Source: Herpetosiphon geysericola (lineage in GTDB: Bacteria > Chloroflexota > Chloroflexia > Chloroflexales > Herpetosiphonaceae). Taken from it: a stretch of 53,856 nucleotides of DNA. A program made the translations under genes and the position numbers. The notes beneath the pieces were generated by a model. That model made no database searches. It worked only from the letters and a program-made list of their open reading frames with translations, and had not been told where the DNA came from. This document shows positions 29,682 to 42,767 of this stretch, piece by piece; the stretch's first letter is position 1; every line of letters begins with the position of its first letter. The DNA is taken from contig NZ_LGKP01000023.1 in NCBI RefSeq assembly GCF_001306135.1, positions 1-53,856 on the forward strand. The letters run 5' to 3'.

Positions 29682-29757
29682 GGGGGTGTAGCTCACTTGG
29701 TAGAGCGTCGCAATGGCATTGCGAAGGTAAGGGGTTCGATCCCCCTCACCTCCACCA
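29682..29757 (+). tRNA. tRNA-Ala (anticodon GGC), CCA encoded
   Basis: A full cloverleaf folds by eye: acceptor GGGGGTG with CACCTCC including the G3:U70 wobble that identifies alanine tRNA; D arm GCTC/GAGC; anticodon stem TCGCA/TGCGA around ATGGCAT with anticodon GGC; a 5-base variable loop; T arm AGGGG/CCCCT around TTCGATC. Discriminator A and CCA are encoded at 29754-29757. A consensus promoter lies upstream and a terminator directly downstream, so it is a single-gene unit. Confidence 0.97.
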
Positions 29758-30372: not shown

Positions 30373-33300
30373 ATGTATCTCAAACGACTTGAAATTCAGG
30401 GATTTAAGACCTTTGCTAATCGCACAGTGATTGAGTTTCCCTTGGGTGTAACCGCGATTGTTGGCCCAAATGGCAGCGGTAAATCCAACGTGACCGATGC
30501 AATTCGCTGGGTGCTGGGCGAGCAAAGTTTTTCGGCCTTGCGCTGCCGCCGCACCGAAGATTTGATCTACAGTGGCGGTGGCAAGCGTGCCGCCCAAGGT
30601 ATGGCCGAAGTAGCTTTGACGATCGACAACACTGATCGCACCTTGCCACTCGATTTCAACGAAGTGACGATTATGCGGCGCTCGTTTCGGTCTGGCGAGA
30701 ACGAATATTTCTTGAATAAAAATAAAGTTCGTTTGCGCGACATTCAAGAAGCAACCTCGCCCTTGGCTTCAAGTTACACCCTGATTAATCAAGGACTCGT
30801 TGATGCAGCCCTGACCTTACGCCCAGAAGAGCGCCGCAGCTTATTTGAAGATGCGGCCTCGATTAGCCTTTCGGTCAGCAAACGCGCCGAGGCCGAACGG
30901 CGGCTCAAACAAACCGAAGACAATTTGGGTCGTATCTTGGATACCTTGGCCGAAATCGAGCCACGTTTGAAGGTATTGCGCCGCCAAGCCCGCGAAGCAG
31001 AGCAAGTCCACGAAATTGAAACTGCGTTGCAGCAAGCCTTGCTCGTGGCCTATCGCCGCCAGTGGCAAGCAGCCCAAAGCCTGGTAGCCCAAGCAGAAAC
31101 AACCTTTGCCGCTGCCGAACAAGCTTTGACCCAAGCTCAAATTGAGCATTCGCAAAGCGAACATCAGCTTGGCGCACTTCGCCAGCAGCGCGATGCCCAG
31201 CAGCAGGTTGTCGAGCACAAACAACAGCAATTGGCCCAATTTGAACGTGAATGGGAAACCATCGAGCGTGAGTGGGCGGTCTTGAGCGAACGCCAACAAG
31301 CGCTGATTACCCGCCGCGATGAAGCCAACGAGCGCCAACAAACCTTTGAGCACGAGCAAACCCAAGCCCACGCTCGCGCCCTTGAATTGGCCGAACAAGC
31401 GACTCAAGCGCAGGCTGCATTGCTGGCTCAACGCCAAGCACTGAGTACGATTGAAGCAGGCGAACAAGCCACAATTGCTGCCCGCCGCGATGCAGAGCAG
31501 GCGCTGAAACAGGCTGAAGCAGCAGCCTTGCAAGCCAGCAAAGCCTTGAACGAGGCCGAGCAGCGAGCCAAACTCCAGCACGAGCGCTGGCAAGCCTTGG
31601 ATAACGAATTAGCTGCCAATCAACAAAAACTTGCCGCTAGCCAAGACCGCATCCAGCAAGCCCAGAGCCAACATGAACAAGCCCAAGCGTTGTATCAACA
31701 AGCAGAGCTAGCATATAACCAAGCCCAAACCAATGAAGAAGCTGCCCAAAAAAGCTTGCTCGAAGCCCGTAATCTGCGCCGCGAACACGAAGAAGCTGTA
31801 GCCTATGCCCGCCGCGAAGCCGATGCTTTACACAGCCGCTTGGATGCTTTGCGCCGCACTGCTGTTGCTGGGGCTGGGATGTTTACTGGGGTGCGCGCAG
31901 CGTTGCAGTGGGCCGAAAAACAGCAACGCCAATTTGCTGTGGTTGCCAGCGTTATCGAGGTGCCTGCCGAGCTAGAAACCGCCTTGGAAGTGGCCTTGGG
32001 CGCACGCTTGCAAAATATTATCGTGCCCCAATGGGACGATGCCGAAGCAGCGATTGCCGAACTCAAACGGACTGATGCAGGCCGCGCGACCTTCTTGCCC
32101 CTAGATAGCCTGCGCTCGCCGCGCCCAAGCCGCATTCCCCAAGCCAAAGGGGTTTTGGGGGTGGCTAGCGAGTTAGTCAACTATGCAGAAAATTATGAGC
32201 GTGCAGTCCAGCACCTGCTTGGCCGTACAATTGTGGTTGAAGATTTAGCCACAGCCCGCCGTATTTTAGCCGAATTGGATGGTGGTTGGACGATTGTGAC
32301 GCTTGGTGGCGAGCAAGTTGGCTCATCTGGGGCCATGACTGGTGGCGCCAAAACCCGCGAAGCTGGCACACTGCGCCGCGAACGTGAATTGCGCGAATTG
32401 CCTGCCCAACTTGCAAGCGCCCAACAGCAACTCTCCAACAACGAGCAAACTCTCAAACAAGCGATTGACGCGATTGGCATTGCTGAAAAAGCTGTCCGTG
32501 AGGCAGACCAGGTGCGGCGTACCAATCGCAGTGCCATGGAAAAAGCCCGCGATAGCCTCGCCCAACGCCAACGTGGCCTGCAACAAAGTGAGCAAGAGCA
32601 CCAATGGCAAGCGCAACGCAGCACCAATGTTCAGCAAGAGCAAGCGAGCCTTAGCGAGCAAATCGCTGCTAGCCAAGCAGAAATTGAGCGCCATCTAACA
32701 GTTGTTGCCGAGCATGAAAGCGCGGTTGCTGCCGCGCGCAATCAGGCGGAAATAGCTGCTGATGCTAGTCGGGCTAGCGAAGAGCGGGTTGCTGCTGCCC
32801 GTGCAGCGATTGTGTCGAGCGATGCCACCTTGCAAGCGACCCAACGCGCGCAACGTGATCAGCAGCAGCTCATCGATGGCTTAGTTCGGCGCAGCCGCGA
32901 TGATCAACAACGCCAACACGAATTGGCCGAGCAATTGGCCTTGACTGAGGCCCAGAGCGTCGTTTTAGCTGAGCGTCGCCAGCAGGCTAGCGCCCAACGC
33001 GAGGCCGCCAACGCCGAACAAGCGCCAGTGCTCGAAGCTCTGAGTCAAATCAATCTTGCCTTGCAGCAAGCAGAGCAGCATGAACGAGCAGCAGCACAAG
33101 CCTTTGTTCAAGCCCAAGCTAGCCTCAGCCGTGCTGAAAGTCAGGTTGCTAGCGCCAACACTCGCCGCGACCATGTGTGGGAACGTTGCGCCGAAGAAAA
33201 TATCGATATTGAGCAGTTGGATGTCAGCCAAACTGCTGCATTCGAGCAAGCTGAACTTTCGGCCCAAGCCCTCAACGAGCACATTGATCAATTGCGCAAT

Positions 33301-36013: not shown

Positions 36014-36045
36014 GCGTGCTAGGTTTAGGCCTAGCACGCTTTTTT
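36014..36045 (+). terminator. Terminator after copC
   Basis: GCGTGCTAGG (36014-36023) pairs with CCTAGCACGC (36030-36039), followed by TTTTTT. It separates copC from the CopC-CopD gene. Confidence 0.92.
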
Positions 36046-36255: not shown

Positions 36256-37971
36256 ATGAAGCGGATTTTAGTTTTAGCTGTGTTGTTGCTCGGTTTATGG
36301 CCAAGCGTGGCGGCGGCCCATGCGTTGGTTATCGAGAGCAGCATTGTTGATGGCGCGGCGCTCGATGTTGCGCCACCTGAGGTTGTGCTGCGATTTAGCG
36401 AGCCGCTTGATCAAAGTTATAGCTCGTTGACGCTCTACAATGAGCAATCGCAGCCAATTGGGCTTGAGCAAACCACCTTTCCTGCCGCCGATAGTATGCA
36501 AGTGGCCTTGCCTGCCGAGCTGCGTCCAGGCGAATATACCTTAATTTACAAGGTGCTTTCGACTGCCGATGGCCATCGTTCTGCTGGCTCATTGCTGTTT
36601 AGCATTGGCACAGGAATCGTGCCAACCGCGCCTTCGGTCGAAGTCAGTGCAACTGCTGATGCTAGCCTCAGTTGGGGCGTGGTCAGTGGCCGTTCGATCG
36701 CCTTAACTGGCGGTTTGGGGGCAATCGGCGGCTTGGCGTGGTTGTTGATTTTGCTCTTGCCAGCGATTCAGCACAATCCTGAATCACGCTTGCCAATGCT
36801 GCTGCGGCCAACAATTTGGCTTACTCAATTAAGCTTGGTCTTGTTGCTGATTGGCTCGATTTGGGAATTTGTGGTGCGGGCCAGCGATTTTGGCGATGGC
36901 AGCTTGGCCTCAATTCAATATGCAGATGTGCTGTCGTCGATGGCAATTAGCCGTTGGGGCATTTTGGCGTTGATGCGCTTGGTTGCGATTACGCTCTTGA
37001 TTCCATTGACCTTCTTGGCTGCCTATCGCAAGCCAATGGGCTATCTGGCCTTGGGCTTGGCCTGTTTAAGTTTGTTGACGTTTAGCATGAGCGGCCATGC
37101 TGCGGCTAATATCGACGACCCAATTACGCCGGTTGCCTCTGATTGGCTGCATATGTTGACGGCGGCGGTTTGGTTTGGCGGCTTGATTGGCATGGCCTTG
37201 AGTGCGTGGGTCTTGCGCAACACTGAAGCCGCAGCCCGCAACAGCGCTTTGGCGTGGCTGATTGCCCGCTTTAGCCCATTGGCGTTGTTTAGCATTGCCT
37301 TGGTGGTGCTGACAGGCACGATGCGCACCTTCGATCAGCTGCCAACCTTGGCTGGTTTGTGGGAATCGCGCTACGGCCAAACATTGTTGGTTAAGTTGGC
37401 AGTGATGGTCGCCACGCTGGTGCTCGGTTTTTGGCATTGGCGCAAGCTTAATCCGCGCTTGCAAGCTGCCAAAGATCAAGCAACCGTGGTTAACATTGGC
37501 CTGACCTTGGGCTTGGAAAGTGCATTGGCAATTTGCGTGATTTTGGTTGCTAGCGCCCTGACCCAAACGCCGCATCCGGTTAAGGCCGCTCCCAGTGCAG
37601 GAGGAACTGCCCAACCAACCTTGCCTACGCCAACCCTGCGCGTGCCCCAGCCCTTGAATTTGTCGGCCCAGCAAGAAGGCTTGACCATGACCCTCTCTAT
37701 TGACGATAACCGTCCAGGTGAGCGTCGATTTAGGGCTAGCGTCAGCGATGCGAATGGCGTAATTCAGCCAGATCGAGTACGCTTACGTTTTGAATCGCTT
37801 GATCTCGAAGCTGGCCAACAAGTGGCAATTCTCGAAGCCGATGCTAATGGACTCTACAGTGCAACTTCGGGAGCGCTAAGCTTGGTTGGGCGCTGGAAGA
37901 TCGAAATGCAAGTGCGGCGGGTTAATCTGCCCGATGTCACTGCTGAATGGACTGTGGAGATAACGCGCTAA
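36256..37971 (+). CDS. CopC-CopD fusion with C-terminal YtkA-like domain
   Basis: Copper-transport membrane protein of 571 residues. Signal peptide (1-21) leaves His as first mature residue ('HALVIESSIVDGAAL'), then a CopC domain (about 22-120; 'LSTADGHRSAGSLLFSIG'). The CopD part has about eight transmembrane helices (about 145-425) with conserved His in 'MSGHAAAN' and 'DWLHMLTAAVWFGGLIG'. A soluble C-terminal beta domain (about 460-571; 'LTMTLSIDDNRPGERRF') resembles YtkA/FixH-like folds. CopC-CopD fusions (YcnJ type) are known to mediate copper uptake. Its stop overlaps the hisG start. Confidence 0.88.
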   Translation: MKRILVLAVLLLGLWPSVAAAHALVIESSIVDGAALDVAPPEVVLRFSEPLDQSYSSLTLYNEQSQPIGLEQTTFPAADSMQVALPAELRPGEYTLIYKVLSTADGHRSAGSLLFSIGTGIVPTAPSVEVSATADASLSWGVVSGRSIALTGGLGAIGGLAWLLILLLPAIQHNPESRLPMLLRPTIWLTQLSLVLLLIGSIWEFVVRASDFGDGSLASIQYADVLSSMAISRWGILALMRLVAITLLIPLTFLAAYRKPMGYLALGLACLSLLTFSMSGHAAANIDDPITPVASDWLHMLTAAVWFGGLIGMALSAWVLRNTEAAARNSALAWLIARFSPLALFSIALVVLTGTMRTFDQLPTLAGLWESRYGQTLLVKLAVMVATLVLGFWHWRKLNPRLQAAKDQATVVNIGLTLGLESALAICVILVASALTQTPHPVKAAPSAGGTAQPTLPTPTLRVPQPLNLSAQQEGLTMTLSIDDNRPGERRFRASVSDANGVIQPDRVRLRFESLDLEAGQQVAILEADANGLYSATSGALSLVGRWKIEMQVRRVNLPDVTAEWTVEITR

Positions 37972-38972
37972 TGCTACGTTTTGCTGTGCCTTCCAAAGGT
38001 GCTCTTGCTGATGATACGTTTCGCTTTTTCGAAAGCTGTGGCCTTAAAATCTCACGGCCAAATCCGCGCCGCTACACCGCTTCGATTAAAGCCTTGCCCG
38101 AGGTTGAGGTTTTGTTGAATCGCGTGCCCGATATTGTCGAGAAGGTCGCCGAAGGCTCGATCGATTTGGGCGTAAGCGGCTACGATCTGGTCGAGGAACT
38201 TGGCGGCGAAAGCGATGATCTAGTGGTGGTCTATAAAGATTTGGGCTTTGGCTATTGCGATTTGGTGCTGGCAGTGCCTGATCACTGGATTGACGTAACG
38301 TCATGGCGCGATGTGGCCGATTTGGCAGCAGAGTATGCACGCTCTGGCCGCCAACTGCGGATTGCAACCAAGTTTCCCAATTTGGTGCGCCAATGGTGCC
38401 ACCAACAAGGGATTAACGTGTTTGCTTTGATCGACTCGCAAGGAGCGACCGAAGCCGCGCCCTCGTTGGGCTATGCAGATATCATTGCCGATTTGACAGC
38501 CACTGGGACAACCCTCCGCGATAATCATCTCAAGATGATTCAAGGAGGCACGATTCTGCAAGCGCAAGCTGCATTAATTGCCAATCGGCGCTCACTGCGC
38601 GAAAGTTCGCAAAAACAACGGGTTGTCCAATCGATTTTAGAGCTGATCGAGGCCCGCCATCGCGCCAAAACCTATGTTTCGCTGATTGCCAATGTGCCAG
38701 GCGCTGATGTCGCCGATGTTGGCGCGCGGGTGGTCGCGCATCCAGCCTTGGCTGGCTTGCAAGGCCCAACGGTTTCGCCAGTGTGGAGCCGCGATGGTGG
38801 CGAAGGTTGGTACGCAGTATCGTTGGTCGTCGATAGCGCCAACATTCTACCAGCAATCGATCACCTGCGCTCGATTGGCTCAAGTGGGATTACGGTTTTG
38901 CCGGTGCACTATGTTTTTGCTGAACGCTCGCAAAGTTTTGCCGCATTGAGCGAATTAATGCACAAAAGCTAG
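37971..38972 (+). CDS. hisG: ATP phosphoribosyltransferase, long form
   Basis: First enzyme of histidine synthesis, joining ATP and phosphoribosyl pyrophosphate. The 333 residues start 'MLRFAVPSKGALADDTFRFF' and include 'EKVAEGSIDLGVSGYDLVEE', 'LRIATKFPNLVRQW', and the PRPP loop region 'ADIIADLTATGTTLRDNHL', with a C-terminal regulatory domain of the long, HisZ-independent form. The ATG overlaps the stop of the CopC-CopD gene (TAATG). No other his gene is nearby, so it is detached from a his operon. The rvt-like gene starts 29 bases downstream. Confidence 0.95.
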   Translation: MLRFAVPSKGALADDTFRFFESCGLKISRPNPRRYTASIKALPEVEVLLNRVPDIVEKVAEGSIDLGVSGYDLVEELGGESDDLVVVYKDLGFGYCDLVLAVPDHWIDVTSWRDVADLAAEYARSGRQLRIATKFPNLVRQWCHQQGINVFALIDSQGATEAAPSLGYADIIADLTATGTTLRDNHLKMIQGGTILQAQAALIANRRSLRESSQKQRVVQSILELIEARHRAKTYVSLIANVPGADVADVGARVVAHPALAGLQGPTVSPVWSRDGGEGWYAVSLVVDSANILPAIDHLRSIGSSGITVLPVHYVFAERSQSFAALSELMHKS

Positions 38973-39001
38973 CAGAATGTGGCTCCTTGCTGGAGGCACT
39001 G

Positions 39002-41362
39002 ATGTTAACTGCAACTGAACAATTGGTAACTGCAATTAAATTGCGCGAGTTGGGCTTGCAACGTGAGCAAGCCCTTGCAACCTATGCTGAAATTAGCCAA
39101 CAATTAGCTACACTTGAACAACCCCATGCCCGCATCAATCTGCTCCAGGAGCAGTTGCAACAATTAACCTTTGCCAAACAGCCGCTGCACCCGAGCATTA
39201 GCAACATGCGTTTATTAAGCGATCCGGCTACGCCTGCGAGCCAAGAATTAACCGCTTGGTGGTCGGCTGAGCTTGAGCGTGAATTGGCCAGTGGTCAGCT
39301 GCGCGCTGAATTGGTCTCGATATTTGGCGCAGTATTCCAAGAGTGGCTTGATAATGCTGAAACTGATGCGCCACATGCTGAGCAGGCCCAGCGCTTGGTC
39401 GAACGAATTAATCAGCCTGGGATGGCAACCAAGCACGGGCCAGTGCTGGATCTGATTTTTCACGATCAGCTTGATCCTGAAAGCCGCGCCGAATTAACTA
39501 CATTGCTGCATGCTGAGCCAGCGTTGCTTGATGATGATCTGCGCGCTGCGATGCTGCGGCGGATTGCCAACGATAGCTTTTATAGCGCCGCCACCCGCGC
39601 CGAGGCGCGCCAAATCTTGGGCGATCCGATTATGCTCAAAGAATTGGGCGATGCCTTGTTGTTGCTGCGTGAGCATTTGGCTAACTGGCGCTGGCCCAAG
39701 GCTGGCGTTGCCGCAGTGGCCCAATATGCACGAACCAAATGGCGCTTGTTTTTGCAAGAAGATCTACTGACTGCGTGTTTGCACTACCTCGTTGCTGAGC
39801 AGTGGCAAGCCTATTTTGCCAAATTCTGCCAGCTCAACAACACGTTGCGCTTGAAAAAACTCAAGCGCATTGCCCAAGATCGCGGCTATGATCGCGATTT
39901 GAATAAGCTAATTGCTGAAAGCTACACGCTTGCCAAAAGTGTGAATTTGTGGCATCGCCTGCGTCGTCCGCTGGCCCACGATGCTGCTGAACAGCTCGAA
40001 TTGTATGGCAATTCCAGTTCAATTTTTGCCAGTCGGGCCAGCGAAATTCAGCGTTTGCAACAATGGAGCCAATTGGCCGAATACGATGCGCAGTATGCGC
40101 ATAATCTCGAAATTGCCCTGCGTTTGATCAACGCCGAAATTCAGCTTGGCCTGCATGCCACTCCCGATCAACCAATCTATGTGCTCAAAACCGATTTTCG
40201 CGATTATTATCCTTCGCTCAATCAGCAATTTGTGCTCGATATATTGCAGCGCATGGGGCTGAGCGAGCAGCAACTTGGCTTTTTTGCTGAGTATATGGCT
40301 GTGCCGTTGCACGTCAATCAGCAAGCGACTCAACAACAGATTGGCCTGCCCAATCATCGACCAATTTCAGACATCTTGGGCGAATTGGTGTTGCGGTTGC
40401 TGGAGCAATATCTTGAACTGCATGCTCATGTGCAAATCGTGCGCTTCGTTGATGACCTGACGATTATTGCCACTGATTCCGAGGAACTTGTGCTAGCTTG
40501 GCGGGCCTTGCAAACCTGGTGTGCCAGCTGTGGCTTGGCTTTGAATCAACAAAAAACTGGCGCAATCGCGATTAATGGTCAATTGCCAAGTGAATTGCCG
40601 CAACAAGCGCCGCATTGGCTCTTTTTGACCCTTGATAACGCTGGCTCGTGGCAACTTGATCAACGCTTGATTCGCGAATATATTAACCAAACCACTCAAG
40701 CGATCACAAATACACCTGCAATTCTTAATAAAATTGAGGTGTATAATGGGGCTTGCAGCTACCTATGCCAAGCAATTGGCCTACGGGTCAACCTTGGCGC
40801 CAGGCATAGGGAGCAGGTGCGCACGACCTTATGGCGTTATGGTCAACAAGTTATCCAACAAGGCAGCATGGTGGCCTATGTTGGTGATTTGATTCGTCAG
40901 CGTTTGCAGAGTCGTGTGCAATTGCCAGAGGCTTGGTTTCATTGGCCAATGACGGCTGGTGGTTTGGGCATTCAACAACCGTTGATCATCGCTCATAGCT
41001 ACCAAGAAGCGTGGCAAACACTATCAGCACCAACCGCGCCAGCAGAACGCTCAGCTTGGTGGCAACAAAACGATAATCCATGGGCTAGTTTTTATCGGCA
41101 TTGGTTGCAAACAATTGAGCCAAGCGAACCAGAAGCCAACAGCGTACTTACGTCATTAACTGACGATTTTATTGCTCGTGGCGGCGAAGTGCGCGCAAGC
41201 GAACAAGCTGGTTTATCTGCCTACTGGCGTTGGATCTTGGCATTGTATGGGCCGCAAATTCTTGAACGTTGTGGAAGTTTTCGGTTTCTGTTCACAGAAC
41301 TTGTGCCACTCCAATTAATTGCTCGTAAATCCGCCAATAGATTGCATGGTACGCTCGAATAA
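39002..41362 (+). CDS. rvt: Cellular reverse-transcriptase-related protein (rvt type)
   Basis: Predicted template-dependent nucleotide polymerase of 786 residues. The RT palm motifs are visible: A 'KTDFRDYYPSL' (Asp398), B 'GLPNHRPISDILGEL' (448-462), C 'VRFVDDLTIIA' (Asp484, Asp485), D 'CGLALNQQKTGAI' (510-522). N-terminal to the palm are about 390 residues including a Leu/Gln-rich coiled coil (about 1-60); about 260 residues follow. There is no group II intron maturase, endonuclease or retron element. The motif B form H-x-x-x-S-D-x-L-G-E and the long flanks recall rvt genes, single-copy RT relatives of eukaryotes reported in bacteria from Herpetosiphon (recalled). ATG at 39002 is set by GGAGG 5 bases upstream, not the frame start at 38987. 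An unclassified defence RT is the main alternative. Confidence 0.8.
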   Translation: MLTATEQLVTAIKLRELGLQREQALATYAEISQQLATLEQPHARINLLQEQLQQLTFAKQPLHPSISNMRLLSDPATPASQELTAWWSAELERELASGQLRAELVSIFGAVFQEWLDNAETDAPHAEQAQRLVERINQPGMATKHGPVLDLIFHDQLDPESRAELTTLLHAEPALLDDDLRAAMLRRIANDSFYSAATRAEARQILGDPIMLKELGDALLLLREHLANWRWPKAGVAAVAQYARTKWRLFLQEDLLTACLHYLVAEQWQAYFAKFCQLNNTLRLKKLKRIAQDRGYDRDLNKLIAESYTLAKSVNLWHRLRRPLAHDAAEQLELYGNSSSIFASRASEIQRLQQWSQLAEYDAQYAHNLEIALRLINAEIQLGLHATPDQPIYVLKTDFRDYYPSLNQQFVLDILQRMGLSEQQLGFFAEYMAVPLHVNQQATQQQIGLPNHRPISDILGELVLRLLEQYLELHAHVQIVRFVDDLTIIATDSEELVLAWRALQTWCASCGLALNQQKTGAIAINGQLPSELPQQAPHWLFLTLDNAGSWQLDQRLIREYINQTTQAITNTPAILNKIEVYNGACSYLCQAIGLRVNLGARHREQVRTTLWRYGQQVIQQGSMVAYVGDLIRQRLQSRVQLPEAWFHWPMTAGGLGIQQPLIIAHSYQEAWQTLSAPTAPAERSAWWQQNDNPWASFYRHWLQTIEPSEPEANSVLTSLTDDFIARGGEVRASEQAGLSAYWRWILALYGPQILERCGSFRFLFTELVPLQLIARKSANRLHGTLE

Positions 41363-41442
41363 AATTCCACGTGGGCAAATCTCCATTCACTACCCGATTG
41401 CCATTTAATGGTTGCCTTTATTAATATTAATCAAGCATTAGC

Positions 41443-41532
41443 AAGGTGATTAATAACTCCTACAGGGGATAGTTAATCACCTCGGAATAGCAGGCTTAAT
41501 CACCTTTTTCTACTCCCTTGCCTGTGATTAAC
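41443..41532 (+). promoter_or_regulatory. Alternative hairpins downstream of the rvt-like gene
   Basis: The arm AGGTGATTAA at 41444-41453 can pair perfectly with TTAATCACCT at either 41473-41482 or 41496-41505. The second is followed by a T run (TTTTTC), as in a terminator. The second copy can instead pair with GTGATTAA at 41524-41531. The order of arms is therefore minus, plus, plus, minus. It may be the rvt terminator, a switch, or tandem operator sites of a dimeric protein. Confidence 0.55.
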
Positions 41533-41557
41533 AACGCTAGCTAGCTATGTTAGTATT

Positions 41558-41596
41558 TGTAAACGTTTACACATATTAAAAAGCCCTAACTATACT
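41558..41596 (+). promoter_or_regulatory. LacI-type palindrome overlapping a promoter
   Basis: TGTAAACGTTTACA at 41558-41571 is a perfect 14-base palindrome with the central CG of LacI-family operators. TTTACA inside it and TATACT at 41591-41596 could act as -35 and -10, although 19 bases apart. The kinase-HAD pair begins at 41757. A repressor bound here would block polymerase. Confidence 0.55.
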
Positions 41597-41608
41597 GTGA
41601 GCAAGTCA

Positions 41609-41636
41609 AGCCTATTCAACCATTGCTGAATAGGCT
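41609..41636 (+). promoter_or_regulatory. Leader hairpin upstream of the kinase-HAD pair
   Basis: AGCCTATTCA (41609-41618) pairs perfectly with TGAATAGGCT (41627-41636) around an 8-base loop, just after the presumed transcription start. No T run follows. The remaining leader to 41756 holds nothing else recognisable. Confidence 0.45.
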
Positions 41637-41756
41637 GTGACAGCGAAGCTTCAAGTAGTTTGGCGCTGTCCATTCTAGCCATTCCCCACTGCGCGGCAAT
41701 GTGAGCCGCTTAACCAATGGTGGTGGAACTCGTATAAAGGAAGGAGCGGGCGAACG

Positions 41757-42767
41757 ATGACGATCATGCTGCTCTCAGATCATCGCGCATTTCCTGCGCT
41801 ACGTGATCAAGCCCTGCCAAGTTTGGGGATTTTCACGTTACACCCAACGTTCAATGTCGAACCAATTATGAACACTCCCAGTGTGCAGCGCGTCCACGAG
41901 GCCCACAGCGGAGTCCACGTGGTTATTAAGTCGTTTGAGCATAAAACTGGCTTAGATGGCCGCCGTTTTTTGCCAGCCTATTCGCGAGCCTTATTGAGCC
42001 GCGAAGCCACCACCTTGGCCCAATTGCACGCGCTTGGGTTTGCCCAAGCACCCTATCTTGTGCCCCGCCCACTTGCCACCGACCCTGAGCGCCTGTTGCT
42101 GATTACTGAATGGTTGCCAGGCCAAAGTTGGGGCGCGATTCTCGAAACCACCTTGCAAACCCGCAATTTAGGCCCATTGATGGCCTATGTCGATACGATT
42201 ACTGGTTGGCTAGCAACCTTGCACCGCCGTACTGCCACCACCGATAGCATTGATGTAACCAATGCATGGGAATATTGGGAAAAATTGCTACGCCAATTGC
42301 GTGGCCAAGGTTTGCTGAACCATGCTGCATTGGCCAATTTGCGCATGCTGCAAGCCCATTGGGCAGCCAGCGGCGTGCTCGAACAAGGCTTGCGTTCGAT
42401 GATTCATGGCGATGCAACGCCAGCCAATATGCTGTTTACCGCCCCCGCTGAACTTGCATTAATCGATTGGGAGCGATCCCGCCACGATGATCCAGCGATT
42501 GATATTGGCTGTATGGTGGCCGAATTGAAGCATGCCTTCTTCAACATGCTTGGTGATGCAACTGCTGCCGAGTGGCTGATTCGGCGGGTCTATGATCGCT
42601 ATGGCTTGTTGAATGATTTTGATCAGGCAGAATTTGCCTCATTTACCCAGCGTGGTCAATTTTATATGGGCTGCTATTTGCTGCGGATTGCCCGCAACGA
42701 ATGGTTTAGCTGGGACTATCGCCAACGCTTAGTGGCGGAGGCGCAGGCATGTCTGGTCGTCCGCTAG
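41757..42767 (+). CDS. Aminoglycoside phosphotransferase-family kinase
   Basis: Predicted small-molecule kinase of 336 residues with the APH fold. The N-lobe includes 'GVHVVIKSFEHKTGLDGRRF', with Lys as probable ATP contact, then 'LLLITEWLPGQSW'. The C-lobe has the catalytic 'MIHGDATPANMLF' (Asp and Asn) and metal-binding 'ALIDWERSRHDDPAIDIG'. Substrates of relatives include aminoglycosides, choline, homoserine and fructosamine; nothing here points to drug resistance. AAGGAG lies 10 bases before the ATG; a Met near residue 39 is a weaker alternative start. Its last 19 bases overlap the HAD gene, so the two are coupled. Confidence 0.82.
   Translation: MTIMLLSDHRAFPALRDQALPSLGIFTLHPTFNVEPIMNTPSVQRVHEAHSGVHVVIKSFEHKTGLDGRRFLPAYSRALLSREATTLAQLHALGFAQAPYLVPRPLATDPERLLLITEWLPGQSWGAILETTLQTRNLGPLMAYVDTITGWLATLHRRTATTDSIDVTNAWEYWEKLLRQLRGQGLLNHAALANLRMLQAHWAASGVLEQGLRSMIHGDATPANMLFTAPAELALIDWERSRHDDPAIDIGCMVAELKHAFFNMLGDATAAEWLIRRVYDRYGLLNDFDQAEFASFTQRGQFYMGCYLLRIARNEWFSWDYRQRLVAEAQACLVVR

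Follow-up and report, generated by a model that had tools for sequence, protein, structure and literature searches.

What kind of polymerase is encoded by the reverse transcriptase (RT)-related gene lying directly behind hisG in Herpetosiphon geysericola, and whether its position has any bearing on its role, are the two questions raised by this locus. The whole stretch of DNA that was analysed (53,856 nt of contig NZ_LGKP01000023.1, hereafter the window) contains at 39002..41362 on the + strand an intact open reading frame of 786 aa, recognised as an RT-related polymerase gene, putatively of rvt type, by Pfam and by the PADLOC model RT_UG37 (1200 bits over residues 1-778). Pfam recognised the palm alone (RVT_1, residues 387-522, E 1.8e-11) and returned neither an endonuclease or maturase domain nor a fused effector for the protein. 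A gap of 29 nt separates the end of hisG (38972) from the ATG (39002), and a GGAGG at 38992-38996 stands 5 nt ahead of this start; an alternative start, the TTG at 38987, is located 5' of the GGAGG ribosome site. The gene gave the single RVT_1 match of the 6.14-Mb genome, and the protein searched against its own genome matched only itself. Rfam yielded no match around the gene and one tRNA over the whole window, with no intron or retron RNA in either. The observation on which the initial annotation was built, i.e., an intact RT-related gene carrying D398, D484 and D485, placed 29 bases behind hisG, present in single copy and with no mobile-element, intron or retron parts directly beside it, is therefore confirmed.

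The anatomy of the protein was read from the aligned full-length sequences of 12 family members, which defined residue invariance, and from a second AlphaFold2 prediction (15 rows, pLDDT 76, pTM 0.77), the first one (8 rows, pLDDT 55.8) being left out. The model places a finger hairpin (236-251) after the N-terminal helices, then a helix (255-293) and a segment of mostly low confidence (294-362) that lead into the palm; the thumb and the C-terminal part are both helical. An N-terminal coiled coil is a feature of the rvt class and had been proposed for this protein: long helices are indeed predicted at residues 4-37, 41-54 and 81-118, making residues 4-118 (39011..39355, + strand) a candidate multimerisation region, but a simple heptad test was not significant for the six Herpetosiphon rows (p ~0.35) and gave p 0.02-0.04 in 4 of the 12 rows. 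The finger beta hairpin (residues 236-251; 39707..39754, + strand), with K246-W247-R248 invariant in all 12 members, is taken as RT motifs 1-2. By Pfam, alignment and model, the palm (residues 363-552; 40088..40657, + strand) holds motif A with D398 and Y403, motif B, motif C with D484 and D485, and motif D; the three aspartates are invariant (12/12). Motif B is unusual, GLPNHRPISDILGE (residues 448-461; 40343..40384, + strand) replacing the usual PQG. Its H-x-x-x-S-D-x-L-G-E form, said in the initial annotation to recall rvt proteins, is present from H452 to E461, but the His is no family signature, being Gln in one distant member and Thr in another; S, D, G and E are likewise replaced in some members. 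The preference for NTPs that had been claimed is not supported, because the motif A Asp +5 position, read in RTs as the steric gate, is occupied by Tyr403 in 12/12 members. In the C-terminal domain (residues 661-775; 40982..41326, + strand), Y741-W-R-W744, Y749-G750 and F760-R-F-L763 are invariant in all 12; conserved tyrosines near the C-terminus are a feature of the rvt class, and Y741 and Y749 are here the candidate priming tyrosines.

The gene adds a member to a family that PADLOC already lists as UG37. The full-length RT_UG37 model scored 780-1289 bits in four distant members and 1234 bits in the H. aurantiacus ortholog, which therefore form one family with it. A scan of GTDB 220 contigs with the protein, sensitive to close relatives only, returned three Herpetosiphon loci, all full-length orthologs (H. 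giganteus, 95%; H. llansteffanensis, 92%; H. aurantiacus DSM 785, 83%), so that distant members may also exist in other phyla. Within the family-level group to which H. geysericola belongs the gene was carried by 7 of 9 genomes, with one match in each of the six Herpetosiphon genomes (6/6); class-wide, 10 of 158 genomes had a match, 8 of them full length. When a family profile was run on a sample of 400 Chloroflexota genomes, 40 showed a match, comprising 12 full-length copies and 25 palm-only matches; the other three were broken or fragmentary (G394, G362 and, interrupted by in-frame stops, G448). The 47-genome class of G271 (E 1e-20) contains four full-length and three broken or fragmentary copies, and the gene is therefore dispensable in that class. 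Outside Herpetosiphon, the family is patchy across Chloroflexota, and vertical descent within the phylum is neither established nor rejected by the topology test, which gave a p-AU of 0.095 with Chloroflexia constrained to one clade. Beyond Chloroflexota, relatives were sought by tblastn on plasmids and phages, by patterns in viral contigs and by the close-relative GTDB scan. At the sensitivity of these searches, no family member turned up when the protein was run by tblastn against plasmids and phages or when viral contigs were scanned with patterns from the profile; tblastn of locus L031 against plasmids likewise yielded none, its matches being palm-only, in 2 Streptomyces records. The viral rows were mostly LINE-like RTs, other RTs and RdRps.

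The RT gene is under purifying selection over its whole length: between H. geysericola and H. aurantiacus its dN/dS was 0.142 overall and 0.10-0.29 by region along the protein, and the same genome pair gave 0.018 for hisG, 0.088 for the CopC/D gene and 0.061 and 0.134 for the two genes that follow the RT gene. Copy counts, selection and the lack of plasmid, phage or viral matches in the searches above together describe a single-copy, non-mobile gene kept by purifying selection, as expected for an rvt.

The hallmark named for rvt proteins in a review is a big insertion between motifs 2 and A/3 (PMC5718144). The initial annotation had suggested looking for an rvt-specific loop before motif A, and a long insertion was found there in all nine members measured: these have 146-166 aa between the finger Arg and the Asp of motif A (150 aa from R248 to D398 in the present protein) vs. 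57-74 aa in 32 other RTs, an excess of approximately 80-100 residues, under the assumption that the modelled hairpin 236-251 corresponds to motifs 1-2. Twenty-six of the comparison RTs were anchored by pattern and six, in which the pattern failed or fell upstream of the fingers (giving none, 81, 134 or 216), were re-anchored by typed motifs (range 62-74), the two ways differing by 1. The stretch of the model that joins motifs 2 and A, mostly of low confidence (residues 294-362; 39881..40087, + strand), is accordingly placed as a candidate rvt loop 2a, and the insertion counts in favour of the rvt reading.

Phylogenetic placement was examined with a palm tree of 41 rows and 133 columns, which included nine family rows, 20 group II rows and two UG rows (Drt9 and UG32), and was built without R2 or LINE rows. 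The family branched as a separate clade with a long stem (support 100/99), apart from the 20 group II rows. It was joined weakly (70/73) with the Drt9 row and one retron row, while the UG32 row fell elsewhere on a long branch. The gene is thus placed firmly neither among UG/DRT enzymes, as far as represented by the two UG rows, nor among group II intron RTs. Several reference rows of the tree had long branches. Among the 400 phylum genomes searched with the Drt9 model for tree references, 75 had a match at E 1e-15, and those inspected were largely group II-like by eye.

HaRVT, a purified bacterial rvt, presumably comes from Herpetosiphon aurantiacus. The title of the HaRVT paper (Yushenova and Arkhipova, 2018) names protein priming, which the invariant C-terminal tyrosines of the present family, found in the same genus, fit; the enzyme reportedly prefers dNTPs, in contrast to the NTP preference claimed initially. 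If HaRVT is from H. aurantiacus, only one of the eight RVT_1 matches (E 0.001 or better) in the complete genome of this species can correspond to it. Three matches (L005, L008 and L010) score 369, 369 and 368 bits with the NCBIfam group II model, above its cut-off of 300, and a fourth (L011) reaches 283.6 bits with that model (cut-off 300) and 420 bits with the PADLOC HEase model. L012 is an RT-Toprim of retron I-C type, and the two matches L014 and L015 belong to a single RT gene, which is followed by cas1; a published paper also names a CRISPR-Cas RT for H. aurantiacus (PMC8934634). The remaining match, L013 (= L003), is the 83%-identical ortholog of our gene and the sole one that is not intron-, retron- or CRISPR-type, an elimination that extends to genes detected by PF00078 (RVT_1) and that a gene missed by this model would escape.

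Elimination and shared features favour membership of the gene in the rvt class, with the eukaryotic rvt genes compared by description. In PMC5718144, rvt is presented as the only RT group found in bacteria and eukaryotes alike, and the eukaryotic genes, from fungi, rotifers and plants, are described as single copy, non-mobile, on a long branch and with a large insertion separating motifs 2 and 3, all of which resembles the family studied here. Other sources describe rvt genes as single-copy, under purifying selection and capable of non-templated polymerisation (PMC10680173, reporting a talk), and ascribe to the RVT of Neurospora crassa a terminal transferase activity and an upregulation by inhibitors of protein synthesis (PMC3520738). 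A bacterial rvt paper is cited for tyrosine-primed synthesis in two further articles (PMC12483538; PMC12632851). The class assignment of the initial annotation is therefore favoured on the grounds of copy number, non-mobility, motif 2-A insertion, separate clade and elimination, whereas the PADLOC label (DRT), the claim on NTPs and the non-significant coiled coil do not support it. No rvt structure appeared among the 50 matches listed by the PDB fold searches, none of the 17 matched PDB sequences is named RVT, and searches of open-access literature brought up no paper joining the names UG37 and rvt and no UG37 title on an RT.

As to the position of the gene, hisG (ATP phosphoribosyltransferase; 37971..38972, + strand) is preceded by a CopC-CopD fusion gene (36256..37971, + strand), likely the first of the transcription unit. 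The hisG start is read as an ATG overlapping the CopC/D stop (TAATG; mechanical ORF start 37947), and at 36014..36045 (+ strand) a hairpin with a T run that resembles an intrinsic terminator, read from the sequence, separates the unit from the upstream genes. Given this overlap and this hairpin, CopC/D, hisG and the RT gene likely constitute one transcription unit. The tight placement behind hisG is real and genus-specific: gene order from an SMC gene (window position 30373) through a HAD gene (42749) is the same in the six Herpetosiphon genomes, and hisG adjoins the RT gene in 6/6 of them, but in none of six full-length loci of other genera read over 13-19 kb. Outside Herpetosiphon the sole shared neighbours of the RT gene were a 30%-identical gene pair, 4-5 kb off, in two loci (L056 and L057), and Pfam on ten chosen neighbours of the distant loci revealed no common theme, 3 of the 10 being without a match.

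The talk report states that rvt genes help bacteria, fungi and rotifers to overcome amino-acid starvation or certain antibiotics, and that the catalytic residues are needed (PMC10680173). In light of this reported role, the linkage to hisG offers a testable connection; it accords with a starvation role of the RT, though it may be due to chance. That the link is accidental, the RT gene having its own control unrelated to histidine or starvation, is a prospect evenly balanced between belief and doubt. It agrees with the loci beyond the genus, none of which adjoins hisG, with the location of hisB on another contig of the H. geysericola genome and with the promoter-like and terminator-like matches in 37700-42000, which were near shuffle level. 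It agrees less well with the tight same-strand packing in 6/6 genomes, with the TAATG coupling of CopC/D to hisG and with the + strand of 37700-42000, the span covered by the scan (the hairpin at 36014-36045 lies outside it), where the hisG-RT interval showed no terminator-like site and no promoter-like site was detected before 40656.

The best-supported reading of the locus, and one that we consider fairly probable, is a tyrosine-primed, non-templated dNTP polymerase of the rvt type acting in stress. The family called RT_UG37 by PADLOC would then be a chromosomal, non-mobile bacterial rvt-type polymerase, made in Herpetosiphon from the CopC/D-hisG-RT unit if the genes are co-transcribed. The protein would probably multimerise through its N-terminal helices, with Y741 or Y749 probably serving as primer and the D398/D484/D485 site probably adding short, little- or non-templated stretches of dNTPs, so that the product would be protein-linked DNA, with a role in stress such as amino-acid starvation. 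Counted against this explanation are the lack of hisG beside the six loci outside the genus, the dispensability of the gene in the class of G271, CopC/D as first gene of the unit, and the window itself, in which Rfam matched no histidine-responsive RNA element of known kind. A bolder version, in which UG37 is the bacterial rvt misfiled as defence and the placement behind hisG lets a shortage of amino acids (histidine) directly drive production of a tyrosine-primed, non-templated polymerase for starvation survival, appears doubtful to us.

The family could instead be an orphan UG/Abi/DRT defence RT, protecting against phage as a one-gene system whose RT would synthesise DNA upon infection and arrest growth, which we judge unlikely. 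The protein does match RT_UG37, a model filed under the class DRT, over its full length, as do the distant members with their 780-1289 bits, and the weakly supported (70/73) placement of the palm next to a Drt9 and a retron row points the same way. Tyrosine priming is moreover given, in two articles, as common to Abi, DRT9 and some DRT10 enzymes (PMC12483538; PMC12632851). With Abi, DRT1, DRT9 and DRT10 the present protein shares the RT fold and a likely protein priming, but the similarity is nearly confined to the palm: the best 24 of the 63 other PADLOC models matched only within residues 377-581, at approximately 53 bits or less, whereas two UG members that were scanned are matched by their sister UG models across the fingers too. 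The motif 2-A insertion is absent from the Drt9 and UG32 rows, whose spacings are 64 and 74 aa, respectively. Defence islands are usually patchy, whereas this gene is kept at one chromosomal place in 6/6 Herpetosiphon genomes. The weak, distant gene pair aside, no recurrent partner gene accompanies it, and it has no fused effector and no match to an ncRNA family; neither plasmids, phages nor viral contigs yielded a member in the searches made. Pairwise alignment of the flanks of seven loci (42 comparisons) revealed no shared RNA, apart from one 44-nt pair above z 4 that was treated as chance.

Comparison of the model with known folds ranked R2 best (Z 23.2, rmsd 5.1, 456 residues aligned), followed by the GsI-IIC group II RT (Z 18.8, 368 aligned), LINE-1 (Z 18.7, 471 aligned), DGR (16.1), DRT9 (16.0), DRT2 (15.3), and telomerase and viral RNA polymerases (15.2). 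Since viral RNA polymerases reach the same Z (~15) as DRT2 and telomerase, those values carry little weight, and since longer chains offer more to align, no branching order was drawn from Z; the higher values of R2 and LINE may partly reflect their longer alignable length. The hand, N-terminal extension and thumb of R2 superpose with the model, but by Pfam the protein has neither the endonuclease nor the maturase domain of R2/LINE-1 and group II RTs. A remnant or domesticated RT of a group II intron or a LINE/R2-like retroelement, without present enzymatic job, is very improbable, for although R2, GsI-IIC and LINE-1 are its best structural matches and the group II model its best, far sub-threshold, NCBIfam match, the active site and the whole length are under selection, the clade stands apart from the 20 group II rows (100/99), and there is no intron RNA by Rfam and no endonuclease domain by Pfam.

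Two mobile identities were considered and rejected. NCBIfam gave nothing above any cut-off for the protein, and a group II intron RT was set aside on its score of 53.7 bits vs. a cut-off of 300, on the separate clade and on the missing intron RNA. A retron was discarded with no Rfam match beside the gene, 26.2 bits vs. 235 for retron_St85 and 31.9 bits for PADLOC RT_II-A, on the palm alone and among the best 25 of 64 matches.

What the locus newly contributes is that UG37 and the bacterial rvt are likely the same, and that the gene keeps a conserved, operon-like position after hisG. Such a fixed hisG-rvt pair in a culturable genus would offer a direct way into the connection reported between rvt genes and starvation for amino acids. 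Should UG37 indeed be the bacterial rvt, what defence-annotation tools flag as protection against phage would be a polymerase acting in stress.

Downstream of the RT gene, an inverted repeat, GGTGATTAA...TTAATCACC (41445..41481, + strand), is conserved in 6/6 Herpetosiphon genomes. It may belong to the next gene as its control site, and for this reason it is not claimed as an RNA of the RT. The region between the RT and APH genes folds better than most shuffles (z -2.4, with 2 of 100 shuffles as good), and its hairpin is kept in all six genomes, three of which carry a second, shorter match elsewhere.

The intergenic stretch separating the RT gene from the APH gene (window 41440-41620) is strongly conserved in all six Herpetosiphon genomes, and the APH-HAD gene pair lies downstream of it. 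This stretch contains GTGATTAA/TTAATCAC half-sites (four in the window), the third of which is changed in the H. aurantiacus group, as well as the palindrome TGTAAACGTTTACA, and it looks like a control region placed before the pair. In one of the Herpetosiphon genomes, the spacer between the RT and APH genes (L051 6444-7016) harbors an insertion of about 180 nt, possibly a small repeat element. As for structured RNAs, a tRNA gene (window 29682-29754) was the sole match to Rfam in the window at gathering score.

Two loci from other genomes (L032 and L034) hold broken copies of the RT gene family: one presents in-frame stops after about 275 codons, and just the N- and C-terminal pieces, adjacent to each other, remain of the other. 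In one distant genome, the RT gene is adjoined by a protein with a TIR domain and a beta-helix (L054 11251-12780, minus strand).

Other RT types were also encountered. The 339,639-base replicon of H. aurantiacus encodes an RT-Toprim fusion of retron type I-C (L012 1264-3090), scoring 542 bits against the corresponding PADLOC model, and a Chloroflexota genome encodes an RT_UG32 protein (L044 807-2540, minus strand; 599 bits), whose N-terminal start appears helix-turn-helix-like by eye.
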